Shown piece after piece: positions 12,783-27,000 of a DNA stretch of 64,000 nucleotides. The DNA is from an uncultured Bacteroidales bacterium (GTDB lineage Bacteria; Bacteroidota; Bacteroidia; Bacteroidales; WCHB1-69), in the NCBI GenBank assembly GCA_947169105.1, contig CAMVOL010000001.1, positions 71,570 through 135,569 of the forward strand. The letters run 5' to 3'. Position numbers and translations under genes: made by a program. How positions within the stretch are numbered: the stretch's first letter is position 1; every line of letters begins with the position of its first letter. The notes under the pieces were generated by a model that ran no database searches, was not told where the DNA came from, and saw nothing but the letters and a program-made list of their open reading frames with translations.

Positions 12783-14840
12783 TTGATAAACAGATACTTC
12801 TACAAATCATCACTTTCTGATTTTGTCAATGAATCATCGGATAAAATCTTTGGCAAAATGTCGCGTGCCGATGAGATGGATACGTCTTCCACACAGAAAT
12901 ATGCATGGGAACAAGAAATCCAAATCATGAAACGTGTGTTGCAGCCGTATGAGAATGAGTGTGCTGAGATTTTATTTGAATATACTATTCCTCGATTGGG
13001 CAAACGTATTGACGTAGTTGTGTTGTTGCAAGAACGAGTATTTGTTATTGAATTTAAGGCAGGTGAAAATGAGTTCATCCATCAGGATGTTGACCAAGTT
13101 TTGGATTATGCTCTTGATTTGAAAAACTTCCATCAAGGGAGTGTTGACCGTTATATTATTCCGATTCTTGTAGCAACAGAAAGTGATGCTTATTCCACGT
13201 TATGTCAATTATCGCATTATGATGACGGCGTTTATGAACCTCTTTTGACAAACGCCGAACATCTTGCAGACATCTTTTCTATGGTTTTGGAAGAAACCCT
13301 TCCTGTAATATCTTATTCTATATCGATTAGTGACTGGGCTCGAAGCCGTTATGCGCCTACCCCCACAATTATTGAAGCAGCACGTTCTCTTTATCTTAAT
13401 CATAGTGTAGAAAATATCACGCGCCATGATGCTGAAGGAGAGCAATTAAAGCGTACAACTCAATATGTTCAAAAAGTGATCCACGAAACAAAGTCGCGTG
13501 GAGGTAAAAGCATTTGCTTTGTTACAGGTGTTCCTGGAGCCGGCAAAACATTGGTTGGATTAAATGTCGCTGTGCAACAGGAAACAGATGAGGATCTGGC
13601 CGTTTATCTATCAGGAAATGGTCCTTTAGTTGCTGTCCTGACGGAGGCTCTCACGCGTGACAAGCAAGCACGGGAGAAATCTCTTGGAAACAGAATTACA
13701 AAGAAAGAAGCTGAAAGGGAGGTAAAGCGTTTCATACAAATCATTCATCGCTACCGTGACAACATGTTAGGGAAAATTCGTGTTGTAAATGGTGAATTGC
13801 AAATAGATCCACATAAAGAATTGCAGGATAAGAAAGCTGGTTATGGCGAAGTGGAAAATATTGCCATTTTTGATGAAGCACAACGTTCATGGGATAATGA
13901 ACACATTGCTTCATGGCTAAAAAGGAAGAAAGGTTTTGACGCTTTCCCAATGTCGGAGGGTGAATTCCTGATTTGGTCGCTTGACCAGCGGAAAGATTGG
14001 GCTGTTATCGTTTGTCTTGTTGGAGGAGGTCAAGAAATCAATACTGGCGAGGCAGGTATTGGCGAATGGATTCGTGCTCTGAATGAGACATTTCCACATT
14101 GGCAGGTATATATTTCTAACCAACTGACAGCAAAGGAATATGCCGAAGGTAAGGTAAAAGATTTATTGGAGAACAACCCACACGTTACCTATTCAGAAGA
14201 CTTGCATCTTGCTGTTTCGATGCGCAGTTTTCGCGCTGAAAGTTTATCCAACATGGTGCATTATCTATTGGATGGCGATGTTGAAAAAGTTCGTCAGACA
14301 TATGCTGCAATATCAGATCGTTATCCTATTGTTCTGACTCGTGATTTAGATAAAGCTAAAGCGTGGTTAAAACATCACGCACGCGGCAAAGAACGATATG
14401 GCATGGTTGTTTCTTCGAAGGCATATCGCCTGAAACCACTTGCAATAGATGTCCGTTGTAAACCTAATACAGTGCATTGGTTTTTGGACGACATTAACGA
14501 TGTTCGTTCCTCTCTGTTTTTGGAAGACGCCGCAAGTGAATTTGATATACAAGGTTTGGAGTTGGATTGGACTTGCCTTATTTGGGATGGAGATTTGCGG
14601 TATAATGGGAAAGGTTGGGACTTTTTTGAGTTTAATGGAGGGAATAAATGGAATCGAATAAATAAGAGCGAACGAAAATCCTATCAGTTGAACGCTTATC
14701 GTGTCCTGCTTACACGCGCACGTCAAGGTATGGTCATCTGTGTGCCAAAAGGAAGTGCTGAAGACCATACAAGATTGCCACAATTTTATGATGGCACTTT
14801 TGAATACTTAAAATCATTAGGTTTGGAAATACTTGAATAA
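12783..14840 (+). CDS. DUF2075-type P-loop helicase-like protein with N-terminal PD-(D/E)XK/NERD-like nuclease domain (candidate defence gene)
   Basis: Probable TTG start; RIDVVVLLQERVFVIEFKAG (D...ExK), Walker A VTGVPGAGKTLVGLN, Walker B NIAIFDEAQRSWD, C-terminal LLTRARQGMVICVPKG. Confidence 0.8.
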   Translation: MINRYFYKSSLSDFVNESSDKIFGKMSRADEMDTSSTQKYAWEQEIQIMKRVLQPYENECAEILFEYTIPRLGKRIDVVVLLQERVFVIEFKAGENEFIHQDVDQVLDYALDLKNFHQGSVDRYIIPILVATESDAYSTLCQLSHYDDGVYEPLLTNAEHLADIFSMVLEETLPVISYSISISDWARSRYAPTPTIIEAARSLYLNHSVENITRHDAEGEQLKRTTQYVQKVIHETKSRGGKSICFVTGVPGAGKTLVGLNVAVQQETDEDLAVYLSGNGPLVAVLTEALTRDKQAREKSLGNRITKKEAEREVKRFIQIIHRYRDNMLGKIRVVNGELQIDPHKELQDKKAGYGEVENIAIFDEAQRSWDNEHIASWLKRKKGFDAFPMSEGEFLIWSLDQRKDWAVIVCLVGGGQEINTGEAGIGEWIRALNETFPHWQVYISNQLTAKEYAEGKVKDLLENNPHVTYSEDLHLAVSMRSFRAESLSNMVHYLLDGDVEKVRQTYAAISDRYPIVLTRDLDKAKAWLKHHARGKERYGMVVSSKAYRLKPLAIDVRCKPNTVHWFLDDINDVRSSLFLEDAASEFDIQGLELDWTCLIWDGDLRYNGKGWDFFEFNGGNKWNRINKSERKSYQLNAYRVLLTRARQGMVICVPKGSAEDHTRLPQFYDGTFEYLKSLGLEILE

Positions 14841-20565: not shown

Positions 20566-21363
20566 ATGCGTTTGGACAAACTTCTCGTCACCCGCGAATT
20601 CTTCACGTCCCGCGAGCGAGCCCAAGACGCCATCGTCCAGAAAACCGTCTCTGTGGACGGGAAAATTGTCGATAAGCCCTCGAAGGAGGTGGCGGAAGAC
20701 GCGGCCATCGAAGTCATTGACATCTTCAATAAGTACGTGAGCCGCGGCGGACTGAAATTGGAAAAAGCCATCGGGGACTTCGGCCTCGACTTTTCCGGAA
20801 AGACCGTCCTTGATGTGGGCAGTTCCACCGGCGGCTTCACCGACTGCGCCCTGAAGCATGGGGCCGCTTTCGTCACCGCCGTGGATGTGGGCACCGGCCA
20901 GCTGCACCCTTCGCTGCAAGGCCTCCCACAGGTGCAGTCCATCGAGAACCGCGACTTCCGCGAACTCACTACGGAGGAGGTCGGCGGGCGCCGGTACGAC
21001 TTCATCGTCTCCGACGTGTCGTTCATCTCGCTCAGTTACCTCATCCCCTACTTCGCGCCGTTCCTCAAGGACGACGGGCAGTGCGTGCTCCTAATCAAAC
21101 CGCAGTTTGAAGCGGGCGCGTCGTTCCTCAACAAAAGCGGCATCGTCACCGATGAAAAGGGTTACAAGATTGCCATCCAGCGTGTTACACAGGAAGCCGT
21201 CATCCACGGGCTCTATCTGAACCAAATCAACATCTCCACCCTTTTCGAAAAAGTCAAAAACGTGGAGTTCATCTCCCTCTTTTCGCACACCGACATCCGC
21301 TATCGCCTCGACTACAACGCCCTTTTCAAAACGGTGAAAGAGGTGAAGAAGGGGTTGAAGTGA
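20566..21363 (+). CDS. tlyA: TlyA-family rRNA methyltransferase (S4 + FtsJ-like)
   Basis: MRLDKLLVTREFFTSRERAQDAIVQKTVSVDGKIVDKPSKEV; KTVLDVGSSTGGFTDCALKHGAAFVTAVDVGTGQL. Confidence 0.92.
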   Translation: MRLDKLLVTREFFTSRERAQDAIVQKTVSVDGKIVDKPSKEVAEDAAIEVIDIFNKYVSRGGLKLEKAIGDFGLDFSGKTVLDVGSSTGGFTDCALKHGAAFVTAVDVGTGQLHPSLQGLPQVQSIENRDFRELTTEEVGGRRYDFIVSDVSFISLSYLIPYFAPFLKDDGQCVLLIKPQFEAGASFLNKSGIVTDEKGYKIAIQRVTQEAVIHGLYLNQINISTLFEKVKNVEFISLFSHTDIRYRLDYNALFKTVKEVKKGLK

Positions 21364-21377
21364 AAAAGCAAGCAATG

Positions 21378-21456
21378 AAAAAAAGCGAGACGCAAGTCCC
21401 GCTTTAAATGTTTTCACAACGGAATAATCCTTATTGTGAATCGCTTCAATTTTTGT
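21378..21456 (-). ncRNA. Candidate type II CRISPR tracrRNA (orphan)
   Basis: Minus-strand RNA CACAAAAAUUGAAGCGAUUCACAAUAAGGAUUAUUCCGUUGUGAAAACAUUUAAAGCGGGACUUGCGUCUCGCUUUUUUU. Anti-repeat-like 5' part; nexus AAUAAGGAUUAUUCCGUUGUGA comparable to S. pyogenes tracrRNA AAUAAGGCUAGUCCGUUAUCA; CACAA/UUGUG outer stem; AAAGCGGGAC-UUGC-GUCUCGCUUU terminator + U7. Confidence 0.8.
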
Positions 21457-21460
21457 GCGG

Positions 21461-21468: not shown

Positions 21469-21527
21469 CACTAAAAATTTAATATAAAATTTTAATAAAC
21501 AAACTGTAAAAAAGAAAATATTTATAG

Positions 21528-21535
21528 TATCTTTG
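21528..21535 (+). promoter_or_regulatory. -7 box TATCTTTG for the cas9 remnant
   Basis: TATCTTTGCGGTC, TAnnTTTG match 63 nt upstream of the cas9-like ATG. Confidence 0.6.
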
Positions 21536-21597: not shown

Positions 21598-21720
21598 ATG
21601 AGAAGGATATCATGTCTTGACTTAGGCACCAACAGCATCGGCTGGGCGATGGTGAATGCGAAAGAAAATGGCGACCACATCACCTTTGAAATATATCGAA
21701 CAAATTGTCTCTGTCGGTGA
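21598..21720 (+). pseudogene. cas9: Truncated cas9 (N-terminal RuvC-I motif only)
   Basis: Own translation ATG at 21598 to TGA at 21720: MRRISCLDLGTNSIGWAMVNAKENGDHITFEIYRTNCLCR*. LDLGTNSIGWA is the Cas9 RuvC-I signature; no Cas9-like sequence follows. Confidence 0.85.
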
Positions 21721-21748
21721 ATACTAACGACATCAAAAAATCAGAACT

Positions 21749-22579
21749 ATGAACGACATCAAACTATTTCAGAACAAGAAAATCCGTTCAGTATGGAACG
21801 ATGAAGAAGAGCAATGGTATTTTTCCGTTGTGGACGTTGTGGAAGCATTGACGGACAGCAATGATCCAAAACAGTATATCAAACGAATGCGTTCGCGTGA
21901 TGAAAGTTTGAATTCCTACTGGGGTACAATTTGTACCCCCCTTGAAATGATTGCACTTGATGGAAAACGTCGCAAGGTGCAGTCTGCTAACGCCAAAGGT
22001 CTTTTCCGCATCATACAGTCGATTCCCTCCCCAAAAGCAGAACCCTTCAAACTGTGGCTGGCCACAGTGGGATATGAACGCATCCAAGAAATAGAGAACC
22101 CCGAACTGGCACAAGAACGGATGAAAGAACTCTATGAAAAGAAAGGCTACCCAAAGGATTGGATTGACAAACGGCTGCGCGGCATCGCCATCCGCCAGAA
22201 CCTGACAGATGAATGGAAAAAACGTGGAATTACATCTGAATCGGATTATGCTATACTCACAGCAGAAATCTCAAAAGCCACCTTCGGAATGACACCTTCT
22301 GAATACAAAGATTTCAAAGGTTTGACTAAAAAGAGCCAAAACCTGCGTGACCACATGGATGATTTGGAACTGATTTTCACCATGCTCGGAGAACGTGTCA
22401 CCACCGAAATCTCAGAAAAAGAAGAGCCCGAAACCTTTGCTGAAAGCAAAAAGATAGCCCACCGCGGTGGCGGTGTGGCTGGAAAAGCTCGTGAGGCAAC
22501 GGAAAAGGAATTAGGGCGCAGCGTGTCAACCCCGAAGAACTTTCTGCCCAATAAAAAGAAGAAGGAAATCGAAGCTTAA
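21749..22579 (+). CDS. BRO-N domain / DinD-like protein (phage antirepressor-related)
   Basis: MNDIKLFQNKKIRSVWNDEEEQWYFSVVDVVEALTDSNDPKQYIKRMRSRD...LFRIIQSIPSPKAEPFKLWLATVGYERIQE. Confidence 0.82.
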   Translation: MNDIKLFQNKKIRSVWNDEEEQWYFSVVDVVEALTDSNDPKQYIKRMRSRDESLNSYWGTICTPLEMIALDGKRRKVQSANAKGLFRIIQSIPSPKAEPFKLWLATVGYERIQEIENPELAQERMKELYEKKGYPKDWIDKRLRGIAIRQNLTDEWKKRGITSESDYAILTAEISKATFGMTPSEYKDFKGLTKKSQNLRDHMDDLELIFTMLGERVTTEISEKEEPETFAESKKIAHRGGGVAGKAREATEKELGRSVSTPKNFLPNKKKKEIEA

Positions 22580-23997
22580 AATCTGAAATAAATAAACGGA
22601 TTCAGTCCGCCAGCCAAAAGCGAACCGCCACACAAAATGTACAGCAGCACCGCCAACACTGTGCCCCCTATAAGCACACGTTTGGTCGGATTATCCGTAT
22701 ATATCTTGTACTGAATATTTTCCATCTTTTTGAAATAGCCCATAAAAGAAAAAATGACCGCAAGTGCAAAGACGAACCAGAAACGGCGGTCACAATAGAA
22801 TTCGTCGTAACGCCCGTCGAACGCAAACATTTTCCTGAGGAAGGAAAAGGCATACGCCATACTTTCGGCACGGAAAAACACCCACCCAATCATCGCCACG
22901 AAAAAAGTGAGCACAACGGATGGCAACTTCCCTATTTTCGACAACACTTTCAGCATCCCTATCTTGTCCAAAACGAGGAAAAGGCCGTGGTATAATCCCC
23001 AAATAATGAACGTCCATGCGGCACCGTGCCATAAACCGGAAATAAAAAAGGCGAAACAAAGGTTGAAGTACATCCGCGGAACAGGAACGCGGTTGCCTCC
23101 CATCGGAATGTACAGATAATCCTTGATCCACGAACTGAGCGTGATGTGCCAACGCCGCCAGAACTCCGTGATACTCTGCGAGATGTATGGAAAGTTGAAG
23201 TTTTCAGGGAAACGGAATCCCAGCATCTGCCCCAAACCCAACGCCATATCCGAATAGCCGGAAAAGTCGAAATAAATTTGGAACGTGTAGGCTAACGTCG
23301 CCACCCACGCCGTCGCCGACGACATATAATCAGGCGAGACGGCAAAAACGGCATCCACATATTCCGCCAATACATTAGCAATCAGTACCTTTTTCGCCAA
23401 GCCTACCATGAATCGGAAGAATCCGTTCACCCGCCGCGCATACGTGTCGGTTGCCTGCCGGTCCGTAAGCTGCAAGGCAATCTCCTTGTAACGCACAATC
23501 GGGCCGGCAATCAACTGCGGAAACATCAGGATGTAGAGTATCATATCCGTCAGTTTTCGCTGCGGCTCCACCGTCCCCCGATAAACATCCACCATATACG
23601 AAATCTTCTGAAAGGTGATGAACGAAATCCCAATAGGAAGCGCAACATCCGCCCAATCAAAAGGTTGTGCTCCAAAATAGGCATACAACGCCCGCACATT
23701 CCCCACAAAAAAATTGGCATACTTGAAATAAAGTAACAGCCCGATATTCAAAACGAGAGAAAGAGCAAGCCACCCTTTTTTTGTTTTATCCTCTGTTTTC
23801 TTAATTTTCTTTGCAAGGAAAAAATCAATGATTACCGAAACAACCACCACCAGAATAAAACGCGGCTCCCCCCACGAATAGAAAAGCAAACTTGCTAACA
23901 GAAGAATGTAATTCTTTATTTTATAAGGAGATAGCCAATAGATTATCAGCAATATCGGCAGAAAGACAAACAGAAAAACAGGAGAACTGAAAACCAC
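22576..23997 (-). CDS. MBOAT-family O-acyltransferase (AlgI/DltB-like)
   Basis: VFSSPVFLFVFLPILLIIYWLSP...YFDFSGYSDMALGLGQMLGFRFPENFNFPYISQSITEFWRRWHITLSSWIKDYLYIPMGGNR...FFISGLWHGAAWTFIIWGLYHG. Proposed GTG start at 23997. Confidence 0.92.
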   Translation of the reverse strand: MVFSSPVFLFVFLPILLIIYWLSPYKIKNYILLLASLLFYSWGEPRFILVVVVSVIIDFFLAKKIKKTEDKTKKGWLALSLVLNIGLLLYFKYANFFVGNVRALYAYFGAQPFDWADVALPIGISFITFQKISYMVDVYRGTVEPQRKLTDMILYILMFPQLIAGPIVRYKEIALQLTDRQATDTYARRVNGFFRFMVGLAKKVLIANVLAEYVDAVFAVSPDYMSSATAWVATLAYTFQIYFDFSGYSDMALGLGQMLGFRFPENFNFPYISQSITEFWRRWHITLSSWIKDYLYIPMGGNRVPVPRMYFNLCFAFFISGLWHGAAWTFIIWGLYHGLFLVLDKIGMLKVLSKIGKLPSVVLTFFVAMIGWVFFRAESMAYAFSFLRKMFAFDGRYDEFYCDRRFWFVFALAVIFSFMGYFKKMENIQYKIYTDNPTKRVLIGGTVLAVLLYILCGGSLLAGGLNPFIYFRF

Positions 23998-24001
23998 GGC
24001 A

Positions 24002-27000
24002 CTATCTTTTGACCACTTTGACCACTTGCCGCGAAAGTCCATCTGCCGATTGGATATGCAGCAGATATATTCCCGACGTAAAATCTTCTATATCAACATA
24101 AAACTTGTCTTCTACGACTTGGAACCGGCGCAATTCCCGTCCCGATAGGTCGAAAAGGCGGCACAACATCGGTCCGTTCTCCCCTCCCCTATCCAATTCT
24201 ACCGTAATGGCCGAAGACGTAGGATTCGGATAAATCTTAACATAAAGATTTTCAGTAATATATTCAACAACACCCGTATTGATGGCCGTCACTTCAATCG
24301 GCACGGTTACGGTATTGCCTTCCTCTACTGTTGCGATGAGATTCGCCCGATAGATACCGTCGGGCATTCCCGCCAAATTCACCGTAAGATTGAGATTGCG
24401 CGATGCCAGTGCATTCAAACTCCCGCTCTGACAATCAAGAGTAGCCCAACCTATGGGATTGTTATTCTCGTTAATTATCTGATTTTCAAAAAGAAGATAG
24501 ATAGGTGTTACTGATTCGTACTGTAATGTCACCTCTTCCGGTTCCGCGCCGCACGTCAGAGCCACCGCTGCCGGTGTAATCCGCAACTGCGGTTCGGCCT
24601 CATTCTCCAACGGCAGGCATACCTCGTCAATCCACACACAGTCCCCGTTTCCGTTTACCGAGTAGTCCTTGGCATACTGCCACATCAGCGTGTGTCCGCC
24701 CGCCGTCACATCGTAATACACATACGTCCAATCGTGCAACCCCGACCAACGGTCCACCTTCTGTCCGTCAATGTAAAAATTGAGCCAATCGTAATTGTTT
24801 TCGGTGGATGTCTTATAGAAAAACGACACCTGTCCAGAGCGTAGTGCCGTGAAATTCAATACCATAGCCGAGGACTGGTCATGTGTAATCACCCCCGATT
24901 TCATCGAATAGCTGCCCGTGACAGAAACGTCCGAGACCCGCACCCAGTCCGCAGAGTCACCCATTTCGTAGGTTTCGGGAAGACCGTCATCGAAGCCCTC
25001 GCAGTTCACATCGCCCACCAAAGGTACCGACAGCGTGCGGTAGAACGTCGCCCCAACCGTAACATCAATAAGGGCGTCCACCACCTGTAGCGACGAAAAA
25101 GTGGCGGTAGGACGAAAGACAAAGGTCGCCAGATAGGACGTATTGGCATCCAACAGATAGCAGTCATCGCGAGAATCCAGAAGCAGAATGTCCGGTTCAT
25201 TAAAATGGAGATGGAACTGCACATCCGTGGCTTGCAGATTGCTGCGGTTGACGAAGGTAACATACAGCGTATCCGTTTCGTCCGGATCCAGCCGGCGGTT
25301 GTTCCCATCGCTGATGGAAAAATTCTGTATTTCAATCTGGTACGAATAGACGGGGAAAGATAACACACTGGTCTGCGGATAACGGTCATTGGTGATGGTC
25401 ACGGCAAAATCCAGAATGGTAAGGTGCGGTGTGTTCTCATCCACCCGAAAGCGGATGGCACGGTTGAGCGTATAGGCGTTCCCCCCGCTGATATAGCCAA
25501 AATATTCCTCATTATCCATCATCTGCACATGTCCATTACCTATAGAAAACGTGATATTGCAGTCGTTATAGGGCAAAGAGTCCATATTCCTCACGGTGAA
25601 TGAAAGCTCCACTTCCTCGCCAGGGTTAATGATGTCATCCTCTCCGGCAGAAATCTGCAAGTCGGTGATTGCGAGCATATTGTCATACTCGCAGTTGAGC
25701 AGCAACACCGTATCGTGCCGTTGGTCGTTATTGTCGAAACAGGTGACGGAAACGGGCCTGCCTGTAAAAGCTTCGGTGGAGGTGCCGGCCAGAACACCGC
25801 TGCGGCTGAGCGTCAGAAAGTCCGGCTTGTAGGGCGGAATGAAACGGAAGCAACGGTTGGTGACAGCTACTGCCGCTTTTTCGGAAGCATCCGTCCTTTG
25901 GAAAATCCTGGAATCCCCGCGCGAAACGGCAGAAATGGCATCACTGCCATTGTAATTCATTGTCCCATAGTAGTATTCAATCATACCATCCGGATACAAT
26001 TTCACGGCAAAATTCACCGCACTGCTGGCATTATTCGTCTGTTTCGCCTGCACAAAGATGGAAACAACCTCCGGTTCTGACTTCACTTTGAGGTTGGAAA
26101 CCGTGAGGTCGGTACGGAAAGGGGCTATCATCTCCGTATTTAGAACCTGATAATCAGTATTTTGCAAAAAAGGCCAGTTATAGGTATTATTACGGAAGGT
26201 GATGTATCCGTCGGCGTAGATGCAAATCTGATTATAATCATTCCCATAAAATGGGAACGAAAACGGAAGTGTCACCGTAGCATAGCCCGTATTGGCATTG
26301 GAGAGAGCCACATCATTTCCATCCACATTAGGATAAGCGGATGTAAATTCCTCTATTTCAAATTCTTTCGTAAACTCAAAACGATAGGGTTCCTTGCCGC
26401 CCGAAACCGGGATCTGATAGGAGTACTCCTGAAACGCGGTCATCATGGGCGGATTGGGGGACATCTGCGGACGGCTGAAATCTACGGAAGCGACCAGCGA
26501 CAAGAAGGTGGTATCGTTATTGGCAATAGGGACATTGGTCTGCGTGCAAGCGATTTCTGTTGGCAGAAATCCCTGATAGTCCATCAAGGAGAAGGATACG
26601 ACTTGTCCATTGGAAACATCATCGGGGTCGTTCTCCACCACCTCGAAGAAGAATTTGGCAGGTTGGCCGGGAGTGAGGAACTCCAACAGACGGCTGACAT
26701 CGAGGCCCAATTCAAGCGAGCGGCCCGTGTCGGTGCTGTCGCCCTGCATATAGTGTTCGCCGCCCTGAAAGTTGAAGACGGCCCACTCGATGGTGTGGTC
26801 GGGGCGTTGGGCGTTCACGTTGGCAGCTACGCCGGCCATCAGTTTGATGCGTCCGCGGCAGGTGTGCGAAACCGTCGCCTTGTAGGTGAGGCGCGGCGAC
26901 ACCTCGTCCTTCACATCCACCACATAGACACAGCTGTTCCAGATGCCGCCCTGCGCCGGCAGTTCCGCTAATTTGCGGTACGGGAGATAGCTGTAGCCGG

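Follow-up and report, generated by a model that had tools for sequence, protein, structure and literature searches.

We find that the window, i.e. the whole stretch of 64,000 nt analysed here (GCA_947169105.1, contig CAMVOL010000001.1, positions 71,570 to 135,569), is best explained, as a whole, as carrying the relic of a type II-C CRISPR-Cas locus reduced by deletions, in which a BRO-N gene of the PDC-S13 family, likely encoding a DNA-binding protein, has persisted. We give this reading a probability of roughly 0.85. The anatomy of the locus, the ancestral gene order, the absence of cas1 and of any other cas9, and the constraint on BRO-N were observed directly. The truncated cas9 is real, and as gene decay it is ordinary. 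Decayed CRISPR loci are common, and the interest of this one lies in the recurrent embedding of BRO-N and in a palindrome placed in its reading frame, the relic itself being ordinary. The window nevertheless offers a natural knockout, in which the embedded gene, intact and constrained, has outlasted the machinery.

The host genome (G000) is a gut-type Bacteroidales draft in 80 contigs, 95.9% complete. The locus is flanked on the left by tlyA, encoding an rRNA methyltransferase (20566..21363, plus strand; TIGR00478, E 2e-62), and on the right by a convergent MBOAT acyltransferase gene (22576..24042, minus strand), syntenic with the relative G005. Between them lie a tracrRNA gene divergent from cas9 (21374..21458, minus strand), the putative promoter TAGTATCTTTG (21525..21535, plus strand), a 5′ and a 3′ remnant of cas9 (21598..21688 and 21689..21727, plus strand), and an intact BRO-N/DinD-like gene of 276 aa (21749..22579, plus strand; PF02498, E 4e-12). 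The -7 promoter consensus of Bacteroidota is TAnnTTTG; TAGTATCTTTG fits it, and is a candidate promoter of cas9, now of BRO-N. As stated in an earlier note on this DNA, a 40-aa ORF (MRRISCLDLGTNSIGWAMVNAKENGDHITFEIYRTNCLCR and a stop, 21598..21720, plus strand) is followed after 28 nt by the BRO-N ORF, and the region upstream of cas9 is intact.

The 40-aa ORF was created by a deletion. Its leading residues had been recognised as Cas9, and they are indeed its N-terminus: in an alignment, 13 relatives with an intact cas9 read MKKILGLDLGTNSIGWAVV. The 5′ remnant runs from the start codon to about codon 30 and fits, up to ∼21688, a G101-type Cas9 (VNADENGKPVSIERMG versus VNAKENGDHITFEI). From ∼21689, the end of cas9 follows, shifted to the +1 frame with respect to the stub (KYIEQIVSVGEY and a stop), intact Cas9s of the same group terminating in NHIGQIVSVGEY and a stop. 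Its last part, QIVSVGEY with the stop codon (21701-21727), shares 21 to 24 of 27 nt with each of seven relatives. The tail of the ORF, previously judged not convincingly Cas9, is thus G101-type Cas9 followed by the cas9 end read out of frame. Alignment with the cas9 genes of relatives places the junction at ∼21689-21700, within the interval 21675-21720 proposed before. What remains of cas9 is ∼30 codons at the 5′ side and ∼12 codons at the 3′ side. Because both ends are present, the loss was internal to cas9; it amounts to ∼4.2 kb, as estimated from the cas9 genes that are intact, which are about 1410-1480 codons long. The truncation claimed earlier is therefore correct as to the 5′ stub, and incomplete in that the 3′ end of cas9 is also present, out of frame before BRO-N. 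The N-terminal stub is of the G101 type and the C-terminal remnant of the G002 type, and no relative was found carrying a cas9 that could be the exact ancestor of the window stub.

Relatives were located by searching with the window DNA, and their loci were then read. An operon made of a divergent tracrRNA, cas9, BRO-N, cas1 and cas2 was found in G002, G005, G012, G024, G053, G055, G063 and others, with a CRISPR array of 47-49-nt repeats in several of the intact loci. Over 104 genomes of the family, BRO-N lies immediately upstream of cas1 in 17 of 29 full-length type II cas1 loci (one of these BRO-N copies is frameshifted, in G020, and one degraded, in G094). From the BRO-N side of the same survey, 16 of the 19 copies with at least 75% identity adjoin cas1, the exceptions being the window, G043 and G102. 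As relatives carry BRO-N between cas9 and cas1, it already stood beside cas9 when the deletion occurred. The same BRO-N accompanies Cas9s that are merely ∼25-30% identical to one another, which indicates that the effector and the BRO-N/adaptation modules have recombined. Order-wide, a type II cas1 with BRO-N alongside is rare, being found among 393 genomes in G055 (a family member) and G448 only, so that the association of BRO-N with II-C is lineage-restricted; the two closest other copies of this survey lie after a Cas9 (G374) and after a Cas12a (G260). Compared to Bacteroidales type II-C loci, the window shares the divergent tracrRNA, the 5′ and 3′ ends of cas9 and the gene positions of the operon, and lacks the cas9 core, cas1, cas2 and the array, while its relatives carry the extra BRO-N between cas9 and cas1. 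In one locus (L185, genome G035), a more distant BRO-N (45%) is found across the tracrRNA from cas9.

Decay has not touched the whole relic equally. When residues identical across all other relatives are counted as invariant, 5 of 19 are changed in the cas9 stub versus 0 of 145 in the BRO-N of the window (Fisher p ∼1e-5, or 2.3e-5 with a smaller denominator). Pairwise omega for BRO-N is 0.015-0.056 where dS is estimable; dS being saturated, the timing of the cas9 loss with respect to the BRO-N branch is uncertain. By these sequence comparisons the stub is decayed and BRO-N is still under purifying selection. As CRISPR is gone and BRO-N is nonetheless intact and constrained, this gene probably acts on its own. 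The putative cas9 promoter would now lie ∼215 nt upstream of BRO-N, which is therefore probably still transcribed.

BRO-N contains a Bro-N domain (PF02498) and, among defence models, is best matched by the PADLOC profile PDLC04920 (PDC-S13), over residues 2-272 (E 5e-122). PDCs are mostly untested candidates, found by their embedding within other defence systems (PMC12988326, PMC11811056). The window copy matches the guilt-by-embedding candidate PDC-S13 (PMC12988326) over its full length, and the copies of its relatives are embedded in defence operons, between cas9 and cas1 or between cas12a and cas4. It departs from PDC-S13 as described in that it survives alone after decay of the operon, and in that its clade is linked with class 2 CRISPR. 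In a literature search that had the guilt-by-embedding preprint outside its scope, we found no paper tying BRO-N to class 2 CRISPR and none assigning a function to PDC-S13. A weak likeness to E. coli DinD (PRK11525) was seen in the C-terminal half, over residues 141-226; identification as DinD was rejected, with a score of 20.6 bits against a curated NCBIfam cut-off of 242.

Sampled copies with at least ∼72% identity adjoin Cas9 (II-C), Cas12a (V-A) or cas1 and belong to one clade, the window, G043 and G102 being the only ones without such a neighbour. The nearest copies from outside the family were read in contigs of species-level genomes. BRO-N lies between cas9 and cas1 in L098, and after Cas12a in L095, L097 and L099 (before cas4 in L097 and L099). 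The latter are type V-A loci of Treponema/Bacteroidales, mostly intact, in which a BRO-N of the same clade stands right after the effector, this effector being Cas12a instead of Cas9. In the Treponema locus L099 (8499-8987), a fragment that appears RhuM-like by eye and a duplicated cas12a 3′ tail are found between cas12a and BRO-N. No cas genes surround the copy of L096 (70-71% identity), and more distant relatives occur beside Cas3g, Cas4, restriction genes and in many unrelated contexts. In a tree of 105 sequences, for which the sampling retained the top 80 out of at least 575 matches, all II-C and V-A copies fall into one 23-member clade, which also includes those of the window, G043 and G102 and is free of unrelated members (support 0.65; 0.92 for the II-C subclade). 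The copies of G043 (L068, 4606-5436) and G102 (L070, 263-1084) are intact and have no adjoining cas9 or cas1, that of G102 being followed directly by a Cas3 HD domain at a contig end. On plasmids the subfamily is sparse.

A sequence search of BRO-N against solved structures found nothing. In the AlphaFold2 model (pLDDT 87.6), an N-terminal segment of mixed strands and helices is predicted to precede a C-terminal half that is helical. Among PDB entries the model has significant matches (Foldseek, probability 1.00, E 2e-5 to 6e-4) only to structures of Deinococcus radiodurans DdrC (7qvb, 8u0g and 7udi), the overlap being partial, with TM 0.35-0.51 and a high rmsd, and sequence similarity undetectable. 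DdrC acts on DNA breaks, which it binds and stabilises, and also compacts DNA. Judging from the predicted fold, the function of BRO-N is most likely the binding of broken or structured DNA.

The BRO-N coding sequence contains a DNA palindrome, GGGTACAATTTGTACCCC (21922..21939), conserved at the nucleotide level across phyla. Codons 59-63 read GGTACAATTTGTACC (window 21923-21937), and the palindrome is perfect in 31 of the 32 genes, from many phyla, that encode the motif GTxC[T/P]. In the proline forms both sides of the palindrome are altered together, giving GGGACAANTTGTCCC. Codon identity is 0.86-0.91 within it, versus 0.32-0.44 expected, and the flanks are at expectation. The 15-mer has six occurrences in 41 whole genomes (∼113 Mb), all of them within a BRO-N gene or fragment, and the reversed 15-mer used as a control does not occur. 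Residues ∼38-80 (window 21860-21990; alignment columns 38-83) exist in at least 4 alternative versions while the rest of the protein is near-invariant, and this swapping suggests cassette exchange; in the other cassette types the half-sites are found in reverse order (TTGTACCCATTTTGGGTACAA). The palindrome looks like an element that acts at the DNA or RNA level, which may serve for self-binding, for exchanging cassettes by recombination or as an mRNA hairpin, and it provides a concrete candidate DNA target.

A break-binding protein encoded between a cutting effector and the spacer integrase might protect or channel the cut ends, or regulate the operon. In intact operons BRO-N would, in this manner, assist or regulate the handling of Cas9 or Cas12a cuts, and in the window it would persist as a stand-alone DNA-binding gene of defence or repair. 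One may go further and propose that class 2 CRISPR-Cas systems, both II-C and V-A, have a dedicated accessory where effector and adaptation genes meet, namely a monophyletic clade of PDC-S13 proteins with BRO-N and a DdrC-like helical domain. Such an accessory would bind effector-made breaks, diversify its recognition segment by recombination at its own palindrome, and outlive the loss of CRISPR as a stand-alone defence gene. This complete scenario is speculative, and we consider it rather unlikely in all its parts. A passenger role is nearly as plausible as a break-binding accessory role, and to it we grant somewhat less than an even chance: BRO-N would be a selfish or independent gene settled between effector and adaptation genes, with no part in CRISPR. 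Such a proposal competes with the functional half of our reading only. It accords with the BRO-N relatives found outside any CRISPR locus in many phyla, with other members embedded in type I-G CRISPR and restriction-modification contexts, with the G043 and G102 copies that have neither cas9 nor cas1 alongside, and with a constraint that continued after the cas loss; it accords less well with the class 2 members being a single clade that spans II-C and V-A and keeps to one operon position, a pattern suggestive of some adaptation to this niche. That the same clade stands between effector and adaptation genes of unrelated Cas9 and Cas12a types suggests that BRO-N is an uncharacterised accessory or passenger of class 2 systems.

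The tracrRNA gene, composed of an anti-repeat, a hairpin and an intrinsic terminator, is kept upstream of cas9 in relatives. This minus-strand region can be aligned with seven other loci, its core being unchanged. The window tracrRNA folds at -24 kcal/mol (z -3.85) into the same shape as that of the intact G002 locus, and its anti-repeat is complementary to the 47-nt repeats of relatives. An Rfam search over the region returned no tracrRNA family, the sole match being one expected by chance (E 1). Several other relics were found in the family. In G006, at a different site, a fragment of BRO-N remains together with a tracrRNA and the start of cas9, which is frameshifted; the cas9 3′ remnant there (LNGQKY-like) differs from that of the window. 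G104 (L075, 1-3602) has lost nearly all of cas9 and kept a tracrRNA and a fragment of BRO-N, and G007 (L034, 7500-7900) has kept a tracrRNA and one repeat-like sequence only. Type II-C loci have therefore decayed repeatedly in the family, the near-complete cas9 losses of G006 and G104 being apparently independent of that in the window. The relic of G104 is directly upstream of a complete Cas12a, and hence adjoins the effector of another CRISPR type. Searching with queries that included the tracr and BRO-N regions favours relics in which these are kept, so that the proportion of such relics is biased upward. It could be argued that what the locus retains as a functional product is the 40-aa peptide or an orphan tracrRNA, given that the tracrRNA core is unchanged and folds well, and that the relics of G006, G007 and G104 keep theirs. 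We judge this improbable, since the stub no longer has all of its conserved residues and runs out of frame at its end, no Cas9 is left for the tracrRNA to bind, and relics found in part through the tracr region carry an ascertainment bias. If BRO-N is the surviving product, as we favour, the 40-aa ORF would be a meaningless leader ahead of it, whose expression from the putative promoter is possible, and the tracrRNA may persist as a transcript without a partner.

Loss of the cas operon, also suggested earlier, is borne out by the rest of the genome. Beyond the two end stubs it contains no other cas9, no Cas12a and no Cas1 of any type (protein and PF01867 profile searches, with control genomes positive), and the family repeat GTTGTGAATNGCTTTCAAA is absent with up to 2 mismatches allowed. 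A match to the tracr region at C10:21314-21349, considered as an array, was rejected, as it is a promoter-like stretch preceding an unrelated gene. Among the components of a functional type II-C system, a complete Cas9 with RuvC and HNH, cas1/cas2 (as judged by Cas1) and an array are missing, and the tracrRNA is present; the locus is now incapable of target cutting or spacer acquisition. At the right breakpoint (22576..22579), where cas1, cas2 and the array were lost, the BRO-N stop abuts the MBOAT stop and, unlike in G005, no cas1 start follows BRO-N. In G005, tlyA, a vanX-like gene, the MBOAT gene and a large surface protein gene come in the same order with no cas remnant, so that the CRISPR locus probably entered the tlyA-MBOAT interval and later decayed inside it. 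The ancestral II-C locus (tracrRNA, cas9, BRO-N, cas1, cas2 and array) would thus have stood between tlyA and the MBOAT gene; one deletion would have taken the ∼4.2 kb from within cas9 and a second loss cas1, cas2 and the array, starting exactly at the BRO-N stop codon, presumably in this order. A draft assembly of 80 contigs might also have joined the ends of a live cas9 locus by mistake, which we hold to be very improbable: synteny with G005 holds on either side of the locus, G006 and G104 have remnants of a similar kind, and the replacement of 5 of the 19 invariant stub residues is unexpected for a fresh mis-join.

Hardly any credit is left to the proposal of the earlier note that the cas operon gave way to BRO-N through recombination with a phage or mobile element, for although BRO-N domains are common in phage antirepressors and weak matches to Ant PHROGs exist, intact relatives have the same gene between cas9 and cas1, the cas9 3′ end sits between the stub and BRO-N, and phage records hold almost no member of the subfamily (4 of 50,697, at an identity of at most ∼51%). 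Annotation of BRO-N as a phage antirepressor (Ant/BRO) was likewise rejected, the best PHROG being of unknown function and the phage records so few. A second BRO-N gene, 47% identical, lies in another context of the same genome (G000:C35:9618-10406, L083). Elsewhere in the window, a 685-aa ORF (12783-14840) looks by eye like a nuclease-helicase (DUF2075-like), and is possibly another defence gene.
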